From a virus: 40,990 nucleotides of DNA. The position numbers and the translations under genes were made by a program. The DNA lies in IMG/VR virus record IMGVR_UViG_3300045051_000620, positions 1 to 40,990 of that record, one strand, 5' to 3'. A model generated the notes under the pieces. That model worked only from the letters and a program-made list of their open reading frames with translations, was not told the DNA's origin and made no database searches. Positions 1,017-37,214 of the stretch are shown here, piece by piece (position 1 is the first letter of the stretch; each line of letters begins with the position of its first letter).

Positions 1017-2837
1017 TTACTTGGCCAGCCGGCCTCTCGGGATAACGTCAATGTCGACAGTCCGGATGGGTCGCGTCTTTGAAGGAGCTTCGTCCCTGGC
1101 GACCTTACCCTCAATTGGCAAGAGCATCTCGGTCTGACCCTCGATGCGCTTGCGACCCCTTCCAGATCGCGCCTGCATTGGAGTTGGTGAGGCTTCCGGC
1201 GGATCAACCGTGCCGGGGAGCTTCAACGGATATTCCGCGAAAAGCCGGGCGACGTCGATTATCTGTAGTTTCGGAGTGCGAAGCTTCGGCGGCCCTATCT
1301 CGCCGGCTGAAAGTGCCTCATTCCGCATGGCCCGCGTCGGCTCACCGAGGCATACAAGGATGCCCGCTTCGGCGCCCTCACGTTCCACCACCGATTTAAG
1401 CTTATGGACTGCATCCACGCCAACATTCGTGCCGCCTTTGACGGACACGATTGCGCGATAAGCCGCTTCACTTCCGGGCCGATGGTACCGGATGACCCCG
1501 TCGATCCCCCTGTCTGCACCTGGCTTGACGTTCGGGACACCCCCAAGCGTGAAGACAGCCCACTTCTGGAACTCCAGCCAGTCGCGAGCGGCAAGCGCTG
1601 TTGCGGATTCGGTGTCCTGCGGCTTGCCGAGCAGTTGATACTGACCGCTGATGGCATCCCCGAACTTCCGCTTCATCCGGGTCTCGATCACGTGGATCGC
1701 CAGATAGGTGATGTCGATCCCGATCCACTTTCGACCGAGCTCCTGGGCAGCCTCAACCGTTGTCCCGCATCCGCAAAACGGGTCAAGAACGACGTCGCCC
1801 GGGTTCGATGACGTTGCGATGATCCGCTTCAGAAGTGCGAGCGGCTTCTGCGTCGAATACCCGAGACGCTCGGCCGCGCCCGCCGTCAGCGGCTGGATAT
1901 CCGTCCAGACGTCCTGCAGCGGGACGCCCTTCATCTCGTCCAGAAACCGCTTGTACTCGGGCATGCCGTCGTATGTGTGCCGCAGGCGGCCTTCCTGCGC
2001 AAACTGCCGCATGTTGGACTTCGAGTAGGCCCAGAAACGATAGGCATACGGGCGGACGGCCCGGTACTCCCAACCCTCACGGGGGGACAGAAACTCATCT
2101 TCCAGGTCCGCTTGCCAGCGGACCTTCTCGCCCGCAGGCTTCTTGACGCGCCAGTCGTATGAGGTGTCTCCACCGCCCTTGGCGGCCGTCAGATCACCGC
2201 GCCGGAACCGCCGTCCGCTGTCATCGTCGACGAGGGCATAATCCCGTCCGGTGTAGCCTTCATTGTACGGGGTGAAGACCTCGTTCCACGTCCAGGTCTT
2301 TCCTTTCGTGTAGAACAGGATCGTATCGTGCACGTGCCCGTGGTTCTTCTTACCCTGTTTGGTGTCGCTGTGCGCGCCCGATCGCTTCCAGATGATCTCG
2401 CTCCGGAAGGCGCTTGGATCGAGGATCGTGTCCAGCAAGACCTTCAGGTAGTGGCTCGCCGCCGGATCGCAGTGCAGGTAGAGCGAGCCCGTTCCCTTCA
2501 GGACCCTGCGCATTTCGACCAGCCTGACGGCCATGATGGCAAGATAGGCCATGACCGCGCTCTCGCGGAAGACCTTGAAGAACGCGTCGAGAAGCTGGCC
2601 AGCCGCGATGTCGCGCTGCGCCACACCCTCCATTGCCCGTCGTGCGTCAGGACCCCAGGTCCACATGTCCTCGAAGGCGTGCGACTGTGCCTGCGAAGGC
2701 CCGGCGCGCTTGGTCCCAAAGATGACGTTGTAGCTGGCCTTCGAGTTGAAGGGCGGATCAAGGTAGATCAGGTCGACAGTCTCGCTGCCGAGCCGCTGAA
2801 GGACGTCAAGGTTGTCGCCGAAGAAAAGCCTGTTCAT
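1017..2837 (-). CDS. DNA methyltransferase fused to a Mrr-like PD-(D/E)XK domain
   Basis: The 606-residue protein starts at ATG 2837, 7-8 bases after GGGAGG; an upstream ATG at 2852 overlaps that ribosome site. It has a Mod-like methylase core: LDPPF (catalytic motif IV, 26-30) precedes LDPFCGCGTT (SAM motif I, 351-360). That permuted order is typical of beta-class N6-adenine or N4-cytosine methylases. After residue 415 comes a Mrr_cat-like nuclease region with GADRGIDG (440-447) and VSVKGG (464-469), giving D446 and K467. A serine occupies the position before VK where Glu or Gln is usual. Base composition is visibly less GC-rich than neighbours, suggesting acquisition as a cargo gene. It probably protects phage DNA from host restriction, or forms a one-polypeptide modification-restriction enzyme; the target site is unknown. 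A 7-bp hairpin at 964..982 lies just downstream. Confidence 0.85.
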   Translation of the reverse strand: MNRLFFGDNLDVLQRLGSETVDLIYLDPPFNSKASYNVIFGTKRAGPSQAQSHAFEDMWTWGPDARRAMEGVAQRDIAAGQLLDAFFKVFRESAVMAYLAIMAVRLVEMRRVLKGTGSLYLHCDPAASHYLKVLLDTILDPSAFRSEIIWKRSGAHSDTKQGKKNHGHVHDTILFYTKGKTWTWNEVFTPYNEGYTGRDYALVDDDSGRRFRRGDLTAAKGGGDTSYDWRVKKPAGEKVRWQADLEDEFLSPREGWEYRAVRPYAYRFWAYSKSNMRQFAQEGRLRHTYDGMPEYKRFLDEMKGVPLQDVWTDIQPLTAGAAERLGYSTQKPLALLKRIIATSSNPGDVVLDPFCGCGTTVEAAQELGRKWIGIDITYLAIHVIETRMKRKFGDAISGQYQLLGKPQDTESATALAARDWLEFQKWAVFTLGGVPNVKPGADRGIDGVIRYHRPGSEAAYRAIVSVKGGTNVGVDAVHKLKSVVEREGAEAGILVCLGEPTRAMRNEALSAGEIGPPKLRTPKLQIIDVARLFAEYPLKLPGTVDPPEASPTPMQARSGRGRKRIEGQTEMLLPIEGKVARDEAPSKTRPIRTVDIDVIPRGRLAK

Positions 2838-2954
2838 CCTTGCCTCCCGCATCCCCCCAGGCGGCGCGTCCTTTTACACCGACTGGCATAAACTCCCTTC
2901 CGAAATCCTAAGGGTCTCCGGGGTTTCCGTCGCGTCGTGGCGAAAACACACCAT

Positions 2955-11391: not shown

Positions 11392-12053
11392 CAGACCCTC
11401 AGGCTCTGTTTCCAGCGAAAGCCCGCGCCTTCGGCGATGCCGCGCCGGAAGCTGCCCTTGTCGACCGACCCGGGCAGGACCACGGCCTTGCACCAGGCGC
11501 GGCTCAGCTCGACCGCAGCGCCGCTCGCCCAGCCCGGCCGCACCGCCGGGATCACCTCGAAAAGCCCGCTCGCGCCCCCGGCGGTGGCGGTCACGGACTC
11601 CATGATCCGGTGCAGCGCGCGCCGGGCCGGGTTCGATCCGTAGGTGAAGGACAGGTAATCGCCCCGCCGCAGCAGGTAGTTGGCGGGCAGCGCCGTCAGG
11701 CTGATCTCGCGGAAGTCGCCCGAGACGGTGCCGATCACCGGGCTCGCCGCGGCAATGACGCTGCCTGTCGGGTCGGAGGACGGAAAGGGCCGGCGCGTGT
11801 CGAAGCACTGGAAGGACCGGCCGGGTTCGCGCAGAAGGTCGATCATCGGCTCGATCTGCGCCCATTCGGCCGGGCCCATCTTGCCCAGCCGCACCTCGCC
11901 CTCCCAGAGCCGGGTCCCGAGGCTTGCCATCAGCAGCTCGCCGCCGGCGGTCTCGTCGACCTGCATCGCCTCGCCCAGGTCGAAGACCGCCTCGCTGACC
12001 GGCAGGACGCTCATGAACTGCGACCGGAAGAGCGGGAAGGTGAAGACGCTCAT
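11391..12053 (-). CDS. Distal tail protein candidate
   Basis: The product has 220 residues and a mainly beta composition. It includes VFDLGEAMQVDETAGGELL, SLGTRLWEGEVRLGKM and ALPANYLLRRGDYLSFTYG, the type of sequence seen in proteins encoded directly after tape measures in siphophages. No catalytic motif is present. Start ATG 12053 overlaps the tape measure stop by four bases. It most likely forms the ring at the distal end of the tail tube (functional counterpart of gene transfer agent gp12). The assignment rests on order and general appearance. Confidence 0.65.
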   Translation of the reverse strand: MSVFTFPLFRSQFMSVLPVSEAVFDLGEAMQVDETAGGELLMASLGTRLWEGEVRLGKMGPAEWAQIEPMIDLLREPGRSFQCFDTRRPFPSSDPTGSVIAAASPVIGTVSGDFREISLTALPANYLLRRGDYLSFTYGSNPARRALHRIMESVTATAGGASGLFEVIPAVRPGWASGAAVELSRAWCKAVVLPGSVDKGSFRRGIAEGAGFRWKQSLRV

Positions 12054-14275
12054 CCGACCCGCCTCCCGTCGCGCGACACGCGGCCGACCGACTGCGGCAG
12101 GACGGTCGCGTCGTAGCGGCGCAGCGCCTGCTGGACGATCTCCACGGTCTGCTGCGCGGCCTCCTCGAGCAGGCGCGCGCGTAGCCCCTCGGACAGTTCG
12201 ACCCGCAGGACCGACGCAGCCCCGCCGGCGACCTTTCCGTCAGCGGCGGTGCCCGCGGCGAAGGCCGGGACCTTCGCGCCCGCGTCGATCATCGCGCGCA
12301 AGGCCCCGGCCGGGGCGCGCTTGCCGAAGGGCGCGGGCAGGCCGAGCGAACCGGTTCCCCCGCCGCCGCCTGCCGCACCGCCGCCGCTGAAGAGACCGCC
12401 CGAGATGTTCAGGATGCCGGCCAGCGGCCCCTGGCCCATCACGAAGGCCTGCTGCGCGGCCTGGATCAGCGTCTGCAGCATCGATCGCAGGACGTCGCTC
12501 GCCTTGGTGCCGCGGTCGGCCAGCATGCCGAGCCAGTTCATCGTCGACTGGTTCAGCCAGTCGGTCATCTGCTTGTTGGCGGCCAGCTGGCGCTCCTCGC
12601 GCATCCGGGTCTCGATCAGCGCCTCGATCTGCGCCCGCTCGGCCTCGCTCGCCCCGGCCAGCGTCTCGCGCTGGCGGATCAGCTCGGCCTTCAGGGGATC
12701 GGTCTCGCGCAGAAGCTCCAGCTCCCGCTCCTGGGCGGTGATCAGCCGCTGGATCGCCCCCGCCTCGGCATCCGCCGCCGAGGCACCGCCCCCGCCGCCG
12801 CCCCCGCCGCCGCCGTCGGAGGACGAGACCCGGACGCCGGCCGCCCCGCTGCCAGGCCGGCCGAAAGGCGACGGGCGATCGTTCATGACCCCGCGCCGCG
12901 CCGCGTCCATTCCGCCGTCCTGAAAGGTGCCTTGGGCAAAGACGCCGGCATCGCCAACCAGGACGTTGCCACGGCCAACCTGCTGCGCCATCCGGGCGAC
13001 CTGCTGCATCCGTCCGACCAGCCGATCGGCAATACCGAAAAGGCCGGCGGCCGAGCCTTGGGCCCGCGCGAAGACGCCGGCCAGATCGACGCCGGCTGCG
13101 CGTGCAATGGTCTCAGCGATCGACGCTGACGTCTGCTGCAATTGCCGCGCCGATGTCGTTGCACCGTTGACCTTGGCCTCGAACAGCGCGGCGTTGTCGC
13201 GCATCTTGGTGATCTCGTCGTAGGCTGCGGCAAGTGGGGCCGGCAGGAACCCGGCCGTGTCGGTCAGGCCGTCCAGGACGGCGAGTGCGCTCGTGGCATT
13301 GACGGCAATCTCCTCCATCGTCTTCGCGGCCGAAAGACTGGCAAAGGCTGCGTCGAGGGCACGGACCTGCGCGATCGTGAGGCCTAGCTCTTCGGCGGCG
13401 GCCCGGGCCATCTGTGAAAAGATGACGGCCTGTTCCTCAGCCGCCTGCGCGGCTGCGCTGTCTTGCCCGGCACCGGCTCGCAGCGCCGACGCCTGCCCCA
13501 ACCGCTGGCTGGCGATCTCCGCATCCCGGACGATCCCCGTGATCGTGGCCCGCATGTCGCCCGCGACCGCGTCAAGATCGGCCCTCGCGCGCTGGATCGC
13601 GTTCCGGGCAACTTGCTCCGCCGCCCGCTGCACCTCGTCCGCCAGGGCACCGTACTTCGCGCGCAACTCGTCGATGTCGGCGCCGAGGATGTCCGCAGCC
13701 GCGCCATAATCCCGCATGGCCTCCGACAGCCGCTCCATCGCCTCTTCGGCGCTGTCGCCCGCCTCGGCCGCGCCCATCAGCCACTGCACGGCCGCCGCCC
13801 CGAAGGCGATGACGCCGATGGTGATCAGGTTCACCGGGCTGATCAGGGACAAGAAGCCCTGCTTCAGGAGGTTGACCGCCCCCGCCGCTCCTTGCCCGCC
13901 GAGGACCTGGCTGATCTGCGTGCCCTGTTGGATCGCCAGCTGCAGCGGGTTCTGCCCGGCGGCCAGCATCACGCCGATGTCGTTGAACTGCGCGGCCATG
14001 TTGCCGATCGACCCGGCCGCGATGTTGTTCCCGGCCGCGGCCGCCCGCGCCGCCGCCGCCTGCGCGCCCTGCGCCGAGGTGACGCCGCGCAGCTGCGCCT
14101 CGACCCGGGCGAGGTTCGCGTCATAGCCCGCCAGCTGCGTGCCCGCGCGGGTCGCCTCGGACCCGGCCTCGCTCGTGGCCGCCGCCAGCCCCCTGGTCTC
14201 GGTCGTGGCCGCGCGGATGTCCTGGCGGGCTTTCGCACCGTCGAAGGTCATCCGTGCGGCCAGTGTCAGCGACAT
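12050..14275 (-). CDS. Tail tape measure protein
   Basis: At 741 residues this alanine-rich helical protein sits between the tail chaperones and distal tail genes, the standard place for the tape measure. The N-terminal 130 residues are coiled-coil-like. A hydrophobic stretch follows at about 140-170 (SLISPVNLITIGVIAFGAAAVQWLM) and is probably membrane-active during DNA injection. A glycine run occurs at about 490-500. At the usual 1.5 angstrom per residue of helix the tail would be around 110 nm. The DNA for the middle third (about 12900-13700) is less GC-rich than either end, suggesting mosaic exchange. Confidence 0.9.
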   Translation of the reverse strand: MSLTLAARMTFDGAKARQDIRAATTETRGLAAATSEAGSEATRAGTQLAGYDANLARVEAQLRGVTSAQGAQAAAARAAAAGNNIAAGSIGNMAAQFNDIGVMLAAGQNPLQLAIQQGTQISQVLGGQGAAGAVNLLKQGFLSLISPVNLITIGVIAFGAAAVQWLMGAAEAGDSAEEAMERLSEAMRDYGAAADILGADIDELRAKYGALADEVQRAAEQVARNAIQRARADLDAVAGDMRATITGIVRDAEIASQRLGQASALRAGAGQDSAAAQAAEEQAVIFSQMARAAAEELGLTIAQVRALDAAFASLSAAKTMEEIAVNATSALAVLDGLTDTAGFLPAPLAAAYDEITKMRDNAALFEAKVNGATTSARQLQQTSASIAETIARAAGVDLAGVFARAQGSAAGLFGIADRLVGRMQQVARMAQQVGRGNVLVGDAGVFAQGTFQDGGMDAARRGVMNDRPSPFGRPGSGAAGVRVSSSDGGGGGGGGGGASAADAEAGAIQRLITAQERELELLRETDPLKAELIRQRETLAGASEAERAQIEALIETRMREERQLAANKQMTDWLNQSTMNWLGMLADRGTKASDVLRSMLQTLIQAAQQAFVMGQGPLAGILNISGGLFSGGGAAGGGGGTGSLGLPAPFGKRAPAGALRAMIDAGAKVPAFAAGTAADGKVAGGAASVLRVELSEGLRARLLEEAAQQTVEIVQQALRRYDATVLPQSVGRVSRDGRRVG

Positions 14276-14276
14276 C

Positions 14277-14947
14277 TCATTTCCCGTTCAACGCGGCCAG
14301 TGCGCCGCTTTCGATCAGCTGCAGGTCGCCCCACAGCCCCGCCGTGACCGCGATGCCGAGCGCGTCGAGCGCCGCCCGCACGCCCCCGTAGTCAAGGCCG
14401 GTCGTCTGGACCGACCCGTCCGGCAGCCCGACCCGCCGCCACTGTGTCGCGCCGGCGAGGAAGGCCTCCACCGCCGCGACGTTCTCGGGCCAGACACCCT
14501 CTTCCTCGGGCGGCGGGGCGAGCATCGCGGGGTCGATCCCCCAGACCTCGGCGTCCTCGGCCAGCGCGTCGCGGGTGCCGGGCCTGACGAAGAGCGTGCC
14601 CGTGGCCCAGGCGCGCCCGGCCCAGATCAGTTTCCCGCGCGCACCCCCACGATCGCCTCGAAGTACGCCTTCAGGAGCGCCAGCCGCACCCAGGGCAGTG
14701 CGAAGGCCGCGTCGCGCGCCGCGTCCGACCAGGGCACCTCGGCGCCGCCTTCGTCGGTCAGGTCGTGCAGCTCGACCACGATGTCGCGCAGGAAGGCCTC
14801 CTTCATCGCGTCGGAGGCGAGGTCGGCCTCGGCGTTCGCGGCCAGCTGGAAGGTCGCGCGGAACTCCTCGCGGACGAAACCGCCGTCGACGGGAACCTGG
14901 GCCGTGACCTTGTGGGTGAAGCGGGGGCGGGGGGTGATCTTCAGCAT
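14277..14947 (-). CDS. Tail assembly chaperone, long form made by -1 frameshift
   Basis: The reading frame after the short chaperone ORF is open directly from its stop region but lacks a good start until ATG 14525. The residues before that ATG (IWAGRAWATGTLFVRPGT, then ALAEDAEVWGIDPAM) look coding. The two frames meet at GGGAAAC (14636 down to 14630 on the minus strand). Slippage there would give a 223-residue G-T type fusion: 106 residues from the first frame, then 117 beginning LIWAGRAW. This arrangement before the tape measure is classical for lambda G/GT-type chaperones, which bind the tape measure and recruit tail tube subunits. Confidence 0.75.
14627..14947 (-). CDS. Tail assembly chaperone, short form (G-like)
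   Basis: The 106-residue protein (MLKITPRPRFTHKVTAQVPV...) lies between tail tube and tape measure. It has the typical chaperone N-terminus, with paired strands TAQVPVDG and EEFRATFQL followed by helices containing AMKEAFLRDIVVELHDL and ALLKAYFEAIV. It ends RAGN-stop, with the stop immediately after the GGGAAAC slippery site. It should be made in excess of the frameshifted form. Start ATG 14947 follows the tail tube stop by seven bases. Confidence 0.8.
   Translation of the reverse strand: MLKITPRPRFTHKVTAQVPVDGGFVREEFRATFQLAANAEADLASDAMKEAFLRDIVVELHDLTDEGGAEVPWSDAARDAAFALPWVRLALLKAYFEAIVGVRAGN
14630..14636 (-). promoter_or_regulatory. Programmed -1 ribosomal frameshift site GGGAAAC
   Basis: On the minus strand the zero frame reads gcG GGA AAC TGA, a canonical X-XXY-YYZ heptamer directly followed by the zero-frame stop. 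After -1 slippage translation continues CTG ATC TGG in the open second frame. The position, immediately before the overlapping frame of a tail chaperone gene, is as in lambda G-T. No downstream pseudoknot was modelled. Confidence 0.8.
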
Positions 14948-14954
14948 CTGGTCC

Positions 14955-15887
14955 TCAGGTCAGGGCAAGCGTCCACTGGTTCGCGCCGGTCGTGCCGAGC
15001 GCGACGCCCCGCAGCGGCCATTCCACGACGCCCTGCTGCTGTTCGAGGCCCGCGGGCCGCATCAGCTGCAAGGTCGGGATCGACAGCGTGGCGATCCGCC
15101 CCGCGCCGGTGCCGTGCACGAGGCTCGCGGCGACGCCGGTCGAGGCCTCGGCCAGCGCGAAGGGGTTGAGCGTGGTCAGCGGCACGGCCTCGATCGTCGT
15201 CTCGACCATGTCCTTGCGGTCGGTGATGATGATCTCCTCGAGGTTCACGAGGAACCGCGGCTCCACCTGGTTGCCGACGTCGAGCGCGAAGGACCGCATC
15301 GGCACCGACACGGCGTTCAGCGTGAAGGTCGGCGTGTTGGCCCGGCTGACCACGCGGGGCGTGCGGAAGCCGGTCAGCGTGGGCGTGATCGACGTCGCCT
15401 CGGCCGGGGTGATGTAGAGGCCCGTGAACTCGAACTCGAGATACGGGATCCCGCTCGCGCTGAAGCGCATCACGACCGTGCCGCGCGCGCCGGCGAACCG
15501 GTAGCGCGTCAGCCCGACCTGGAACCAGATCGTCAGGCTGTCGACCGGCAGCGCGACCGGCGCGTAGGTCACCGAGGTGACGGCGACGACGGTCTGGCTG
15601 ATCCCGCAGCCGCGCATCAGAACGCCCCAGGCGGGGGCCGTGCCGGCGGTGCCCGATGGCTCGAGCTCGACCTTGAACCTGATCTTGCGGAACAGGCCCG
15701 CCGGGATCGTCGGCTGGCCGCCGATGAAGTTGGTGTCGAGGTCGCGGCTGACGTCCTCGCCTTCCATCGGCATGATGGTGAAGTCGGTGGCAAGGATCGC
15801 GTCGGTCGTGCCGACCGGGGTGCTGTCGGTGCCGTAGGTGGCCTCGATCTTGGCCAGCAGGACCTTGTTGCGCCAGTAGAGCGGCAT
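14955..15887 (-). CDS. Major tail tube protein (siphovirus type)
   Basis: The 310-residue protein begins MPLYWRNKVLLAKIEATYGTD and includes SRDLDTNFIGGQPTIPAG, matching the general pattern of siphovirus tail tube subunits (an N-terminal strand/loop with a Thr-Asp pair, then repeated strands). C-terminal LVNLEEIIITDRKDMVETTIEAVPL is also typical. Its place after the gp37-type gene and before the chaperones supports this. No sheath protein was found, so the tail is non-contractile, unlike phage Mu itself. The C-terminal third may be an added Ig-like domain. Confidence 0.85.
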   Translation of the reverse strand: MPLYWRNKVLLAKIEATYGTDSTPVGTTDAILATDFTIMPMEGEDVSRDLDTNFIGGQPTIPAGLFRKIRFKVELEPSGTAGTAPAWGVLMRGCGISQTVVAVTSVTYAPVALPVDSLTIWFQVGLTRYRFAGARGTVVMRFSASGIPYLEFEFTGLYITPAEATSITPTLTGFRTPRVVSRANTPTFTLNAVSVPMRSFALDVGNQVEPRFLVNLEEIIITDRKDMVETTIEAVPLTTLNPFALAEASTGVAASLVHGTGAGRIATLSIPTLQLMRPAGLEQQQGVVEWPLRGVALGTTGANQWTLALT

Positions 15888-29812: not shown

Positions 29813-30210
29813 GCCGCCACCCCCATCAGTTCCCGCGGCGGGGCCCACTCGATCAGGACGCCATCGAAGCGGAACAGCATCCCGTGCTGCGCGCGCCAGA
29901 AGGCTGCCATCTCGTCGGCGTCCCGGAACCCGTCGCGCAGGGCGAAGGCATCCAGGTCGAGGGCCGGGTGCCCGCCGGCCATGATCCGCTCGATCGCCCC
30001 GTCGGGCCGGAAGGCGATGCTGACGGGCATCACCTCCAGGCAGTGGGGGTCGGCCATGATCTTCGCCGCCCGGGCCGTCCGCAGCCCGGAGTAGAGCTGG
30101 ATCAGCTCGCCCGGCCGCGCATGCCGCAGGCGCGGTCCCCGGATCGTCTGGCACTTGTAGCCCTGCCGGATCGGCTCGACGAACCTCGGATGGAAGGAGT
30201 AGGCGACCAT
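29809..30210 (-). CDS. ASCH-domain-like protein
   Basis: The product has 133 residues from ATG 30210; a GTG at 30213 closer to GGAGG is an alternative. The sequence AYSFHPRFVEPIRQGYKCQTIRG, then ARPGELIQLYSGLRTARAAKI, is the ASCH/PUA-like pattern (RQG.K.QTIR; PG..IQLY.G.R). ASCH proteins bind RNA or nucleotides and occur in many phages as early genes. Its specific ligand here is unknown. It shares one base with the ParB-like gene's stop. Confidence 0.8.
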   Translation of the reverse strand: MVAYSFHPRFVEPIRQGYKCQTIRGPRLRHARPGELIQLYSGLRTARAAKIMADPHCLEVMPVSIAFRPDGAIERIMAGGHPALDLDAFALRDGFRDADEMAAFWRAQHGMLFRFDGVLIEWAPPRELMGVAA

Positions 30211-31067
30211 CACGCGGCCCTCCGCAGCGGGTGTTCATTCAGCGCAAGGAACATCGTCACCCCCCCCCCCGCCTGCTTCAGCAGCCGCACGAAGATCGCG
30301 CGGGGTGGCATCGGGTTCGGGCGCTCGGGCGTCTTTCGCCCAGCCTCGACAACCTTCCACGGGTCGGTCCGCGTCAGGAACGCCGGCAGGTCCATGTCCA
30401 GCGCAGCCGGCCATTCGCACAGCGCACCGATCCACGGTCGCAGGATCGCGTCGTGGTAGAGGGTCACCCGCGTTCCGCCGTCGACCGCCACGACCGCGGC
30501 CAGCCCGGCAGTGACAGCGCGGTCATGGCCGCGGTCGATGAAGTCCTTGATCAGGAGCGGGGCCCAGACCTGCCGGACCCGCTTGGCGCTGGCAGTCGGC
30601 TGGTAGTCCTTGAGCTCGCAGCCGGCGGCGGCGACGGCATCCCGCGACCGGATCGCCCAGTCCTCGCGCGCGGTCAGTGCCGCGCGGTAGATGTGATGGC
30701 CGCTGATCCGGATCGCGGCGGTATTGACCCCGACGAATGCCCGTGCCTGCGCCTCACGCGGGATGTGCACGACCACGGCGGGAACCGTCTCGATCCCGCA
30801 GATCGCTGCCGCATGGGCCCGGTGCTGCCCGTCGATCACCGCGAACCTGCCGCCCGGCACCGGTGACACCAAGAGCGGGCTAAACCGCGCCCATTCGAAA
30901 GCCGTCGCGATCCGGCGGATCGCCGCCCAGTTGGCCGGGCCCAGCGGGCGCTGGTAATCCTCGTCGATCACCAGGTCGGCGATGGCGATCCATTGCATGC
31001 TTGGCGCCGCCTGGTCGGCCGGGGCTACTGATGGTTCGTTGCTGACGTCGATCGTGCGGTATGCCAT
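30210..31067 (-). CDS. ParB-like nuclease/partition-domain protein
   Basis: The 285-residue protein has an N-terminal ParB/sulfiredoxin-like domain: MQWIAIADLVIDEDYQRPL (24-42) and GGRFAVIDGQHRAHAAA (72-88), the DGQHR box being the nucleotide-binding signature. A helical region then carries LIKDFIDRGHDRAVTAGL. Such DUF6551-type proteins are common in phages and may bind DNA or have CTPase or nuclease activity. Near the C-terminus the gene contains an 11-base G run, so the reading frame there is prone to slippage. GAGG precedes ATG 31067. Confidence 0.8.
   Translation of the reverse strand: MAYRTIDVSNEPSVAPADQAAPSMQWIAIADLVIDEDYQRPLGPANWAAIRRIATAFEWARFSPLLVSPVPGGRFAVIDGQHRAHAAAICGIETVPAVVVHIPREAQARAFVGVNTAAIRISGHHIYRAALTAREDWAIRSRDAVAAAGCELKDYQPTASAKRVRQVWAPLLIKDFIDRGHDRAVTAGLAAVVAVDGGTRVTLYHDAILRPWIGALCEWPAALDMDLPAFLTRTDPWKVVEAGRKTPERPNPMPPRAIFVRLLKQAGGGVTMFLALNEHPLRRAA
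30260..30270 (-). repeat. Eleven-base homopolymer (G11 on the coding strand)
   Basis: The plus strand has eleven consecutive C bases inside the 3' end of the ParB-like gene, coding AGGGV. It is far longer than other mononucleotide runs in the window and leaves only about 15 codons downstream. Slippage would alter the C-terminus. A sequencing length error is also possible. Confidence 0.85.
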
Positions 31068-31071
31068 CGCC

Positions 31072-31749
31072 TCACGCCTTCGCCAGGTCGATCGTGACCG
31101 GCTCCCAGGCGCCGTCCGCCGTCGCGCGCTGGTAGAAGCGGACGTAGGACTTCGACCCCACCACCCGCATCGCGTCGCGGATCGCCTGCATGGCCCGCTG
31201 CCAGCGGTCATCGGCGATCTCGAGACGGAGGAGCGAGTAGAGCGCCGCCCGGTTGATCTGGCCCTCCTTGTCCGTGTTGAAGGCCCGCGTGATGATCGCG
31301 CGCAGCTCCTCCCGCGCCCCCGATGCCCAGTCGTTCAGGCATTCGTCCACCAGGCTCTTCGCGACCTGCAGCTCCGGCCCGAAGACGATTGCGTCGGCAA
31401 TCTGGACGGTGATCTTGAACCGCCCGTCATAGGTCATCAGCGTCTTGTTGCCCTTCGGCCCGCCGACCTTCGCACCATACTTCTCGAACAGCAGCGCCTC
31501 GTGCGCCTCGATATTCTCGGTCACATGGCCCATGAACCGCGCGATCTGCTCGGACAGCGCCACCGCATGGCCCATCTCGTCGCGGACGAGCTCGTCCTCC
31601 AGCAGGACCTGCGGCTTCACGATCCGCGCGGGGATCAGCTCGCCCTTCGGCCCGATGACATGCTCGACCCCGTCGATCGAGACGCGCCCCGAGGGGATCT
31701 TCGCGGGCGGGTAGGCGGTCGGCCGATCGTGTTCAACCTCGGGTGTCAT
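31072..31749 (-). CDS. DUF3164-like early protein
   Basis: The 225-residue protein has MGHVTENIEAHEALLFEKYGAK at about 74-95, followed by KGNKTLMTYDGRFKITVQIAD (98-119), then ALYSLLRLEIADDRW and a C-terminal YVRFYQRATADGAWEPV. This is the DUF3164 pattern, found in the early region of many Mu-like phages and sometimes called Sth-like. Function is not established. It overlaps 31746..31991 (ATGA) and is followed by the second ParB-like gene after four bases. Confidence 0.85.
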   Translation of the reverse strand: MTPEVEHDRPTAYPPAKIPSGRVSIDGVEHVIGPKGELIPARIVKPQVLLEDELVRDEMGHAVALSEQIARFMGHVTENIEAHEALLFEKYGAKVGGPKGNKTLMTYDGRFKITVQIADAIVFGPELQVAKSLVDECLNDWASGAREELRAIITRAFNTDKEGQINRAALYSLLRLEIADDRWQRAMQAIRDAMRVVGSKSYVRFYQRATADGAWEPVTIDLAKA

Positions 31750-31991
31750 GCCCGGTCTCCTTCTGGCAGGGGGTGGACCAGCCGGGCGGGCGTGGCCTCG
31801 CCCGGCAGGGTGGCGACCAGGCCAAGGGCGATCAGCGCCCCGGCCATGGCCATGATCTCGTCGACCGACAGCAGGGTCGCGCCGCGCACGTCGTCGCGCA
31901 CAACGCGGCCAAGACCTCGGCTGGCGATGGCCAGCATTTCGGCCTCGGTCCAGGGGGCGACGTCGCGGGTCAGGGCGATGGGGCGGATCAT
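31746..31991 (-). CDS. Small early protein
   Basis: The 81-residue product (MIRPIALTRDVAPWTEAEMLAIASRG...) has a central segment TLLSVDEIMAMAGALIALGLVATL, probably one hydrophobic helix pair. No family was recognised. It is coupled to neighbours by four-base overlaps on each side, between the DnaA-like and DUF3164-like genes. Confidence 0.7.
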   Translation of the reverse strand: MIRPIALTRDVAPWTEAEMLAIASRGLGRVVRDDVRGATLLSVDEIMAMAGALIALGLVATLPGEATPARLVHPLPEGDRA

Positions 31992-32488
31992 GCCGCGGCC
32001 TCCCCGCCCACGTCTCTGTCCATGACGCTCCGCAGGCCGGCCAGCCGCGCCCCATCGCTCAGCCCCGGCGCGGACAGGAGCGCGTCGACCGACACGAGCG
32101 TGGCGACCAGCTGGTCCCACTCGTCGCCGGTGGGCCTGCCGCGCGCGGTGGCCTGCCGGACCAGCCGCAGGGCGCCCCGCGGATCGGCCGCGCGCAGCCG
32201 CTGTTCCACCCGCAGGCGCCAGTCGCGCAGCTCCAGGGCGGCATGCTCCAGCACCTCGGCCTCGGCCCGCATGGCCGTCACCTGGTCGCTGACCGTGCTG
32301 GCATCCCGGCCGCCGAAGGCCGCGCCGATCTGGCCGTTGGTGGCGGCCGTCATGTCCCGCAGCACGACCCACAGCACCTTGCGCAGCCGCCGCAGGGCGG
32401 GCGTGCCGTAGTGGCCCGTCAGGTCCGCAACGTCGACCTGCGCGGACTCGGCAAAGGCCGTGATGATCGCCTCCATGCGCACGGTCAT
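31988..32488 (-). CDS. DnaA domain IV-like DNA-binding protein
   Basis: The 166-residue protein has LTGHYGTPALRRLRKVLWVVL (23-43), then TNGQIGAAFGGRDASTVSDQV (50-70). FGGRDASTV closely matches the DnaA-box recognition signature of DnaA domain IV (GGRDHTTV). The AAA+ part of DnaA is absent. The rest is helical with arginine-rich segments. It could bind DnaA-box-like DNA to steer host replication proteins to phage ends, or act as a repressor; both are inference. It overlaps neighbours by four bases. Confidence 0.75.
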   Translation of the reverse strand: MTVRMEAIITAFAESAQVDVADLTGHYGTPALRRLRKVLWVVLRDMTAATNGQIGAAFGGRDASTVSDQVTAMRAEAEVLEHAALELRDWRLRVEQRLRAADPRGALRLVRQATARGRPTGDEWDQLVATLVSVDALLSAPGLSDGARLAGLRSVMDRDVGGEAAA

Positions 32489-34239: not shown

Positions 34240-36357
34240 TCACCCGAACATCGCGTCGCCGAAGTCCTCGTAGAGCTTGCGCTCCCCGAGGTAGCCGGCG
34301 CTGCGCTGGAACATTGTCAGCCACTGGCGCTGCTCGTCCGTGACCGGCTGGCCCTCTGCAATCCGCAGCTCCAACTGCAGCGCGCGGCGGAACTTCGACC
34401 GCACATCCTCCTCGACCGGTGGCTGCCGTCGTGCCGTCAGGTCGGTGACCTCGGCATGTACGCGTTCTTCCTGCGCGGTCATTTCGCGCTGCGCTGGCCG
34501 TGCCGGCGTGACAAGCGTCCTGACAACTGGCCGTGCGACGCGCGCCGGCGGCGGCGTCTCGGGCAGTAGGCCTGCGACCTCGTCCTGCATCAGCCCCAGC
34601 TCGTGGGTGGTGAATTTGCGGTGCTGCGCGAGGAAGGCCTTTTCGGTTCGCCGCAGCTTCAGCCGCTCCTTGGCGATCAGCGCTGCGTCCTCTTCCGACA
34701 GGAAGCCCGTCTTCACCCGGCAGGGCGCATCGCCAAGATAGCGGCCGTCCATCGCGAACACGTGGATCCCTGCATGCAGGTCCGACGGCTCGAAGCGGAT
34801 GACCAGCTTCTCTCCGGCATGCTCGCGCATCCAAGGTGCCCAATACTCGTTGCCCATGAACATCACCCGGCCGGTGGGCTTCTTCGCGCTGACACCCTCG
34901 GCCCCCAGCAGCCACAGGCGCCGCTGCGCCTCGTTCGGCATGCGGACCCCCGCCGTGGCATAGGCGGCGTGGAAAACCTCGGCGAAGGACCGTCCCCAGG
35001 CGACCTCCGACCGGCGCCCCTGCCGCATGTTGTGCTCGGCGATGGCCTCGCCTGTCACCCGCAGGAAGACGTCGAGCGGAACGGCCTTGGACCCGTAGTT
35101 TTCCGGCTTCGCGTCGGGACGGTTGCCAGTCCAGGCGCCGGCGAACCGGGGGTCCTTCGCTAGCGTGTCGCACAGGTCACGGAAGGCGCGCTCGATCGGC
35201 TTGGACTGTCCGCTGTAGGGCGTCGTGAAATGGACCTCGCATCCCAGAAGCTTGAAGAGGCCCGGCACATCGTCTTCGCGCATCTTGTAGCGGAACCGCT
35301 TCTCGGTCCCGCCGGTCAGGGCCTTGTTGGCGAACTCCTTGCCATTGTCGAACAGCACATGCTCCGGGATGCCCCAGCACTGCATCATGTCGCCGGCGGC
35401 CAGCTGCACCGCCCGGCGGTTCAGCGTCATGTCGACGATCCATGACAGGATTTGGCCCGAAAACACGTCCTGGAAGGCGATCAGATGCGGCCTGATCGGG
35501 TCCGGCAGCGGCTGTCCCGGAAGGGCCGGCCATTGCACGAAGACGTCGACGATATGGCCGTCGGCGTTGACCACCTCCATCGGCCGAAGCGCCGTCTTGT
35601 CCCGCCGCTGCGGCGGGGTCAGCGCCTTCAGCGCGTCCACGCCCTTCCGCGCCAGGTCTTTCGTGGTGTCGCTGACCTCGCGCGCGAAGGCCCGCCGCGC
35701 GGTCTTCTCGTTCAGGATATCCCAGCCCCGTGCCGCCGCCTGCGTCAGCGCACGCCGGTAGGTCGACGAAAAGCTCGGCCGCTCCGACCTCAGGTAGTCC
35801 GACTTGATCCAGGCCATGAACTCGGTCGCGACCTTTCGCGGCTTTTCCTGTGCCGTCGCGCGGTTGCGCGGCGCGAGGTAGGGTAGCCTGTCGGAGCGAT
35901 CGATCCCCTCGATCATCCCCAGCCAAGACCAAACGGTCCGCGCGCCGAGCTTCTCCGCCCGCGCGACCATATGGACCGCCAGGTGCTTGCCGTGCAGCGG
36001 CTCCATCGCCTCGATCGCCTGGATGACCCGCAGCCGCAGTGCGGCCCTGGCCTTCACGCTGTCCGGCAGGCCTTCGAACCACGTCCAGGCCTCGTCTCGC
36101 GCGACGCTTGCCGCCGGGACCGTCGGCGTCGGCTGCGACAAAGCCTTCAGCAGCTTCTGCTGCGCGCGGATCGGGAAGAGCGACCAGTGATACTCCCAGC
36201 CGCCACCCTTGCCTGACCTGCGTCGGGCCAGCGACGTGCTGCGCCAGTCCTTTGTCTGGAACTCCACGCCTTGGCGCGTGCCGGCCATGCAAGGCAGGCC
36301 AGCCGCGGCGATCTCGGCCGAGGTCCACCACTCCTGCGCGGGGGCCGGGCCGGTCAT
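34240..36357 (-). CDS. A: DDE transposase A (MuA-like)
   Basis: The 705-residue protein catalyses strand transfer of the phage ends. An N-terminal Mu-type DNA-binding domain (WWTSAEIAAAGLPCM, 10-24) is followed by helix-turn-helix parts for end binding. The catalytic triad fits D266 (VVNADGHIVDVF), D337 (HVLFDNGKEFAN) and E389 (SKPIERAFRDL), close to D269, D336 and E392 of MuA. The C-terminal region contains FMGNEYWAPWM and a helical tail ending YEDFGDAMFG that should contact B. Start ATG 36357 overlaps the ParB-like stop (ATGA). It should act on the sites at 119..157 and 40709..40854. Confidence 0.97.
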   Translation of the reverse strand: MTGPAPAQEWWTSAEIAAAGLPCMAGTRQGVEFQTKDWRSTSLARRRSGKGGGWEYHWSLFPIRAQQKLLKALSQPTPTVPAASVARDEAWTWFEGLPDSVKARAALRLRVIQAIEAMEPLHGKHLAVHMVARAEKLGARTVWSWLGMIEGIDRSDRLPYLAPRNRATAQEKPRKVATEFMAWIKSDYLRSERPSFSSTYRRALTQAAARGWDILNEKTARRAFAREVSDTTKDLARKGVDALKALTPPQRRDKTALRPMEVVNADGHIVDVFVQWPALPGQPLPDPIRPHLIAFQDVFSGQILSWIVDMTLNRRAVQLAAGDMMQCWGIPEHVLFDNGKEFANKALTGGTEKRFRYKMREDDVPGLFKLLGCEVHFTTPYSGQSKPIERAFRDLCDTLAKDPRFAGAWTGNRPDAKPENYGSKAVPLDVFLRVTGEAIAEHNMRQGRRSEVAWGRSFAEVFHAAYATAGVRMPNEAQRRLWLLGAEGVSAKKPTGRVMFMGNEYWAPWMREHAGEKLVIRFEPSDLHAGIHVFAMDGRYLGDAPCRVKTGFLSEEDAALIAKERLKLRRTEKAFLAQHRKFTTHELGLMQDEVAGLLPETPPPARVARPVVRTLVTPARPAQREMTAQEERVHAEVTDLTARRQPPVEEDVRSKFRRALQLELRIAEGQPVTDEQRQWLTMFQRSAGYLGERKLYEDFGDAMFG

Positions 36358-37214
36358 TCGTCCGCCCCGCCGCCGTCGACATCGCCGATCAGGTCCAGAA
36401 GGGCGTCGCGGTGGGCTGCCACGAACTGACGCCGCGCCTTCTGCGGAATACGGCCCCACAGCTTCGACAGCGCCTTGAAGCCCTCTTCCACATCGTCTTT
36501 CGGGGTCTTCACCGGCCCTGCTTCGCCGTTCTCGACCTTGATCTGCCGCCGCGCGACAGCGACCGCCTTCGCGTTGCCGCTCGCCAGGATCGACACGACG
36601 CGCGCCCGCTCCTCGGGATCAGCGACCTTGGCCAGATCGGCCAGATGCTTCGGCCCGATGGGCTGGTCGGCCCTGTCCAGGGTCCGCGCCTCCTCGGGCG
36701 TCAGCCGCTCGCCGATGGCCAGCATCTTCGCTGCCCAGCGCTCGCTTACGCCCATCACGGCAGCCATCGACTTGGTGAGTGAACTCAGTTCAGTCACCAC
36801 TTTTCCGGTGTGCTGGTTGCCCTTGAAGACGCCGCGCGCGCGGTCCGGATGGGCAGCGTAGTAGTCCCGCTTCCAGCTCGCCGCGAAGACGGCGCGCTGC
36901 ACCGGTGACATACTGGCCGCGCCAAGATTGTTGCCCGCCTCCATCTGCCGCGCCTCGTCCTGGCGGCACTCGACGACCAGACAGGCGATGTCCGCATCGC
37001 CACGCCGCCGGGCCGTCTCGACCCGGTGTGCGCCGTCGATCAGCTCATGTCCTTTGGGCACCTTGCGCACATGGATCGGGGTCGTCAGGCCGCTGTCCTC
37101 GGCCATCAGCAGCAAGGCCGCGACATGCGCCTCGGACACCTGCCGCAGCCGGTCGCCGATCGTGATCGCATCAAGGGGAAGGCGGACCACCTGGCCCGAA
37201 TGCAGGAACTTCAT
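36354..37214 (-). CDS. ParB-like protein upstream of the transposase
   Basis: The 286-residue protein has an N-terminal ParB domain with RLPLDAITIGDRLRQV (11-26) and GHELIDGAHRVETARRRGD (55-73). The KorB-like middle part includes MSPVQRAVFAASWKRDYY and VMGVSERWAAKMLAIGERLTPEEA, the latter a helix-turn-helix. This domain order is that of ParB/Noc-type DNA binders. Its place directly before A suggests a role in regulation or in phage DNA maintenance, not proven. It overlaps both neighbours by four bases. Confidence 0.85.
   Translation of the reverse strand: MKFLHSGQVVRLPLDAITIGDRLRQVSEAHVAALLLMAEDSGLTTPIHVRKVPKGHELIDGAHRVETARRRGDADIACLVVECRQDEARQMEAGNNLGAASMSPVQRAVFAASWKRDYYAAHPDRARGVFKGNQHTGKVVTELSSLTKSMAAVMGVSERWAAKMLAIGERLTPEEARTLDRADQPIGPKHLADLAKVADPEERARVVSILASGNAKAVAVARRQIKVENGEAGPVKTPKDDVEEGFKALSKLWGRIPQKARRQFVAAHRDALLDLIGDVDGGGADE

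Follow-up and report, generated by a model that had tools for sequence, protein, structure and literature searches.

A predicted programmed −1 ribosomal frameshift joins a tail assembly chaperone to a DUF1799 extension in a transposable phage

Introduction

The G/GT frameshift of the lambda tail assembly chaperone was reportedly described by Levin in 1993, and Xu, Hendrix and Duda are said to have established, in 2004, tail-gene frameshifting for long-tailed phages in general. In lambda, a −1 slip on a heptamer of the form X_XXY_YYZ occurs near the end of the first gene, the site sits between the tail tube gene and the tape measure gene, and the long protein extends the short one; the system is recounted in passages of PMC5009743 and PMC2628397. 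Phage Mu, which is transposable, likewise has frameshifted tail chaperone genes but uses a −2 shift (PMC5009743, PMC2628397). The layouts closest to the one described here are those of Burkholderia phage KL1 gp18/gp19, with GGGAAAC directly 5′ of TGA (PMC3483164), and Acinetobacter phage Loki gp12/gp13, with AAAAAAC adjoining the stop (PMC5313236); both sites are predictions in other, apparently non-transposable siphophages, and the likeness lies in the arrangement of heptamer and stop.

Here, we analyzed a 40,990-base viral contig (the window), in which the structural genes lie on the minus strand. Comparison with relatives makes it highly probable that programmed −1 ribosomal frameshifting joins a 106-aa tail assembly chaperone to a DUF1799 extension, with the lambda-like features listed above and the KL1-like order of heptamer and stop.

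Materials and Methods

Viral contigs were searched with a profile that started 11 residues past the slip point; the slip region was left out because circularity was to be avoided. Bacterial genomes were searched with the Pfam DUF1799 model, which gave 55 genome loci, and a further scan of genome contigs gave 7 loci. Clustering of the loci at 75% identity resulted in 98 distinct clusters. In the folding analysis, synonymous codon resampling was used to control for protein sequence and codon usage because the extension opens with a conserved GC-rich motif.

Results

A preliminary description of this DNA had proposed a GGGAAAC frameshift site read in the zero frame as G-GGA-AAC-TGA, with a fusion of 106 + 117 residues as its product. 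The heptamer is indeed present, running from 14636 to 14630 on the minus strand, and the codons read off the sequence show that the 106-aa ORF closes with ...CGC GCG GGA AAC TGA (Table 1). Following a −1 slip, the reading becomes GGG AAA CTG ATC TGG... and remains open for 117 further residues, for a fusion that would be 223 aa long. The −1 frame is also open for 106 codons 5′ of the slip. The gene order is tail tube, chaperone/DUF1799 pair, tape measure. GGGAAAC occurs once in the window versus 3.3 copies expected by chance, and the heptamer alone is not rare; the case against chance lies in its phase, in its position abutting the stop, and in the fact that all relatives conserve it.

Table 1. 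Positions in the window of the predicted frameshift cassette and the genes next to it
Feature	Positions	Strand	Basis or remark
Zero-frame gene, gpG-like tail assembly chaperone (candidate), 106 aa	14627..14947	-	ORF; PHROG 569; Pfam matches of homologues
Slippery heptamer G_GGA_AAC	14630..14636	-	Sequence; in-phase heptamer in relatives
Zero-frame UGA ("intercodon")	14627..14629	-	Abuts the 3′ side of the heptamer
T-like DUF1799 extension in the −1 frame, 117 residues past the slip	14277..14636	-	PF08809; PHROG 680
Predicted downstream stem-loop	14580..14623	-	First paired base 6 nt past the heptamer
GGGGGTG, Shine-Dalgarno-like	14642..14648	-	5 nt upstream of the heptamer
Short ORF, spurious	14277..14525	-	Opens with the ATG at 14525
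Tail tube protein gene, upstream neighbor	14955..15887	-	Pfam Phage_tube_2, E 1.4e-7
Tape measure protein gene, downstream neighbor	12050..14275	-	Pfam TMP_2, E 3e-11; PHROG tape measure, E 7e-62

An in-phase slippery heptamer was found in all viral loci read and in 54 of the 55 genome loci, the sole remaining locus having A_AAA_AAT_TGA. All 98 clusters contain such a heptamer, with GGGAAAC in 57, AAAAAAC in 39 and AAAAAAG in 2. Conservation in relatives had been suggested as a check in the preliminary description, and across this sample the site is never lost, only swapped for another slippery heptamer. Judged from a single sequence, the pattern might also be produced by an indel introduced in sequencing or assembly, or by gene decay, either of which could leave a lone frame break separating two homologous segments. 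However, the break recurs at the same base in about 100 distinct clusters, with isolates, prophages and metagenomes among their sources, and both segments are under purifying constraint; an indel or decay is vanishingly improbable and is already refuted by the relatives.

The coding frame switches at the heptamer. In 146 moderately diverged pairs, divergence at the three codon positions is 0.12, 0.05 and 0.35 before the heptamer, corresponding to the zero frame, and 0.12, 0.06 and 0.26 after it, corresponding to the −1 frame, and none of these pairs has a heptamer mismatch. The heptamer opens on the third position of a codon whose amino acid varies (A, E, Q, L, R, S, T, P, V and others), yet this base covaries with the codon that follows: all 57 clusters in which GGA follows have G there, and all 41 in which AAA follows have A (Fisher p 1.4e-28, a nominal value since the clusters share ancestry). 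Mixed forms are absent from the 98 clusters. In addition, GGA accounts for 7 of 204 glycine codons in the upstream genes, yet it is used at every GGGAAAC site. Taken together, these patterns indicate that the constraint on the heptamer acts on slipping and not on the protein. Depletion of the heptamer elsewhere in these genomes was also looked for, and none that was consistent was found.

A change of frame could in principle arise from transcriptional rather than ribosomal slippage, and the relatives with AAAAAAC do offer a run of at least six A residues. However, the runs at the window's site are only three bases long, in a form common to 57 of the 98 clusters, and known polymerase slippage sites are longer homopolymers, with A runs of more than 7 and T runs of more than 8 (PMC3711429). 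Transcriptional slippage is therefore extremely unlikely here.

The part of the −1 frame that follows the slip point encodes a conserved domain. It matches DUF1799 (PF08809) with an E value of 4e-12 (46.5 bits versus a gathering cutoff of 26) and PHROG 680 with an E value of 2e-19, and, in relatives, second-frame homology starts at the slip point, which bears out the earlier remark that coding-like residues directly follow it. An AlphaFold model of the extension has a pLDDT of 91.5, with a confident helix at residues 2 to 12 and values of about 96 over the first ten residues. Foldseek searches with this model yielded no significant match, and in a second fold comparison with solved structures the best Z score was 3.1, within the uninformative range of the tool. 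In a PDB sequence search, the DUF1799 profile showed a weak resemblance, at E 2e-4, to ribosomal protein L20 in the C-terminal part of the latter; the fold search gave no echo of this resemblance.

We also considered whether the second frame is translated independently, with initiation at the ATG at 14525 or through termination-reinitiation on the overlapping CUG(A). That ATG does exist, and it is the first ATG, GTG or TTG of the −1 frame, as expected from the earlier statements that this frame lacks a good start and that a gene caller would mis-start the second part there. Deposited relatives are annotated in a similar way; for instance, a late start is given for both Thiobacimonas phage P1 and S-CBS1, and the CTG serves as the annotated start in RC1. 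However, the methionine at 14525 is not conserved in relatives and lies 37 codons into the conserved domain, past its top-conserved motif GKLIWAGRAWA, and a product starting there would lack the predicted helix at residues 2 to 12. A search for a conserved independent start, the finding that had been named as counting against frameshifting, came up empty: 68 of the 98 clusters have no ATG, GTG or TTG between the opening of the −1 frame and the slip, 95 of 98 have no ATG or GTG within 60 nt, and the −1 frame of several relatives opens just 1 to 5 codons 5′ of the heptamer. With regard to reinitiation, the stop varies between TGA, TAA, TAG and none, and hence the start would read CTG, CTA or CTC. 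Either form of independent translation would leave the GGG/AAA covariation unexplained, and we consider it very unlikely.

The identity of the 106-aa protein as a tail assembly chaperone is supported by synteny, by its match to PHROG 569 (class "tail", E 3e-13) and by Phage_TAC_4, a Pfam family matched by 16 of 51 homologues of the upstream gene (best E 8e-5). The window's own protein has no Pfam match. Its AlphaFold model is confident (pLDDT 88.8), and Foldseek searches with it gave no significant match; in the second fold comparison, the best hit was 3fgx, an uncharacterized Bacillus protein (Z 4.5, rmsd 4.0, 80 aligned residues), also in the uninformative range of the tool. PHROG 569 and 680, the families matched by the gene pair, are both labeled "tail length tape measure protein." This looks like a mislabel, with the two families corresponding to the chaperone and its frameshift extension.

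A zero-frame stop immediately follows the heptamer in 88 of the 98 clusters, versus 8.6 expected from the codon usage of the −1 extension. The residue that is encoded across the stop varies (K, T, I, R, A, S or M) while the stop is kept, and this pattern indicates that the abutting stop is itself under selection. Both AAAAAAG clusters belong to the ten without an immediate stop. In four loci (L189, L203, L205 and L232), the zero frame continues for 54 to 105 nt beyond the kept heptamer before stopping, which gives the short chaperone of these loci a longer tail.

The folding energy of 50-nt segments is close to the shuffled expectation everywhere but at and just after the heptamer, where the mean z scores are −1.46 and −1.40. 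With synonymous resampling, the family mean z is −1.34 ± 0.13 at +12 to +60 and about 0 for segments starting at +24 to +30. The family thus seems to be under selection for a stem about 5 to 10 nt past the heptamer, beyond what the protein requires. The window's own stem has a predicted energy of −25.5 kcal/mol and is, taken alone, not significant (synonymous z −1.0, p 0.19). RNAalifold consensus folding, used to look for a common pairing register in the family, returned an empty structure.

Upstream of the heptamer, the window's GGGGGTG is the strongest anti-Shine-Dalgarno match among 113 relatives (−12 kcal/mol), and it is possible that it serves as an accessory element. Shine-Dalgarno stimulators of −1 sites typically lie 10 to 14 nt upstream, and the GGGGGTG is closer. 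A Shine-Dalgarno stimulator as a family feature was dropped, as the signal across the family is weak (−0.52 ± 0.15) and the spacing in the window is short.

The phage had been described as transposable, and this was borne out by Mu-like head genes and by an ORF at 34240-36459 that encodes a MuA-like DDE transposase (DDE_2, E 6e-41; HTH_Tnp_Mu_2, E 1e-19). Two separate ParB-like proteins are encoded on either side of the transposase region (30210-31211 and 36354-37214, both minus strand), and the early region also encodes a DUF3164 protein (31072-32055, minus strand, E 4e-67). At the late end of the phage, a 611-aa ORF (1017-2852, minus strand) combines an N6/N4 DNA methylase domain (E 6e-42) with an Mrr-type restriction endonuclease domain (E 3e-9); based on these domains, it is possibly a single-chain restriction-modification protein.

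Discussion

In the mechanism that we propose, most ribosomes would read G GGA AAC UGA and release the 106-aa gpG-like chaperone. A minority would slip one base back on GGGAAAC as tRNA-Gly and tRNA-Asn re-pair with GGG AAA, and these ribosomes would bypass the UGA and append the DUF1799 domain, giving a gpGT-like protein. If the two proteins work as in lambda, the domain present in both would coat the tape measure protein, the extension would recruit the tail tube protein, and the ratio of short to long protein, set by the slip rate, would matter for assembly. The occurrence and rate of slippage and what each protein would do are thus modeled on lambda (PMC5009743), and the stop and the stem may both influence the rate.

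The annotation of this gene pair can now be regarded as settled: DUF1799 "genes" represent the frameshifted C-terminal half of a tail chaperone in essentially every sampled case. Deposited annotations of Thiobacimonas phage P1, RC1, S-CBS1 and Variovorax phage VarioGold are without the frameshift. It is not mentioned for Thiobacimonas phage P1, and in VarioGold, AAAAAAC TAA lies precisely where the chaperone gene ends (974-983 of that locus) and the region was published as two genes.

The heptamers G_GG.A_AA.C and A_AA.A_AA.C have low efficiency in E. coli and are also used by insertion sequences (PMC4066793); the host here is not E. coli. AAAAAAG is among the most slip-prone heptamers in E. 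coli. A stop right behind a slippery site lowers bacterial −1 slippage in an RF2-dependent manner (PMC4373837). A heptamer that is weak in E. coli combined with a selected stop suggests tuning for low output, possibly sensitive to release factor, and we infer that this arrangement keeps the fusion rare. A simpler reading is that selection may merely favor a short chaperone that ends at that stop. To return to low-output tuning, it is conceivable, although rather doubtful at present, that tail phages carrying a DUF1799 extension have in common a fixed cassette consisting of an E. coli-weak heptamer ending in AAC, an abutting stop and a stem-loop about 5 to 10 nt downstream, in which the stop would act as a release-factor brake while the heptamer occupies the E and P sites, and the ratio of short to long protein would follow the release-factor level of the host. 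In either case, the conserved abutting stop provides a natural and widespread test case for termination versus −1 slippage in bacteria.

The pair had initially been likened to the lambda G-T solution. As to type, this comparison holds up: gene order, the heptamer and the missing conserved start strongly support a tail-chaperone frameshift of the lambda G/GT type. It does not extend to the details, as the lambda heptamer is GGGAAAG and the zero-frame stop comes 15 nt later, whereas the window has GGGAAAC with a stop that abuts the heptamer without overlapping it. The protein families also differ, since the window combines a DUF1799 extension with a Phage_TAC_4-like chaperone. In the part of HK97 examined, a simple scan for XXXYYYZ found no in-phase heptamer.

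According to passages of PMC3556154, the same two heptamers are found before the tape measure gene in the Caulobacter (alphaproteobacterial) phages phiCbK (AAAAAAC) and Colossus (GGGAAAC), which, unlike the window phage, are large siphophages of another lineage. A −1 frameshift in the tail genes of a transposable phage, as predicted here, was proposed previously for PaMx73, a Mu-like siphophage of the D3112 group, although its T_TTT_TTC site lies 43 codons before the stop (PMC4378225). Taken together, this kind of frameshift is already established, and the window offers an ordinary example of it; the present comparison adds the uniformity of the cassette across the family, along with a selected immediate stop and a downstream stem that likewise seems to be selected.
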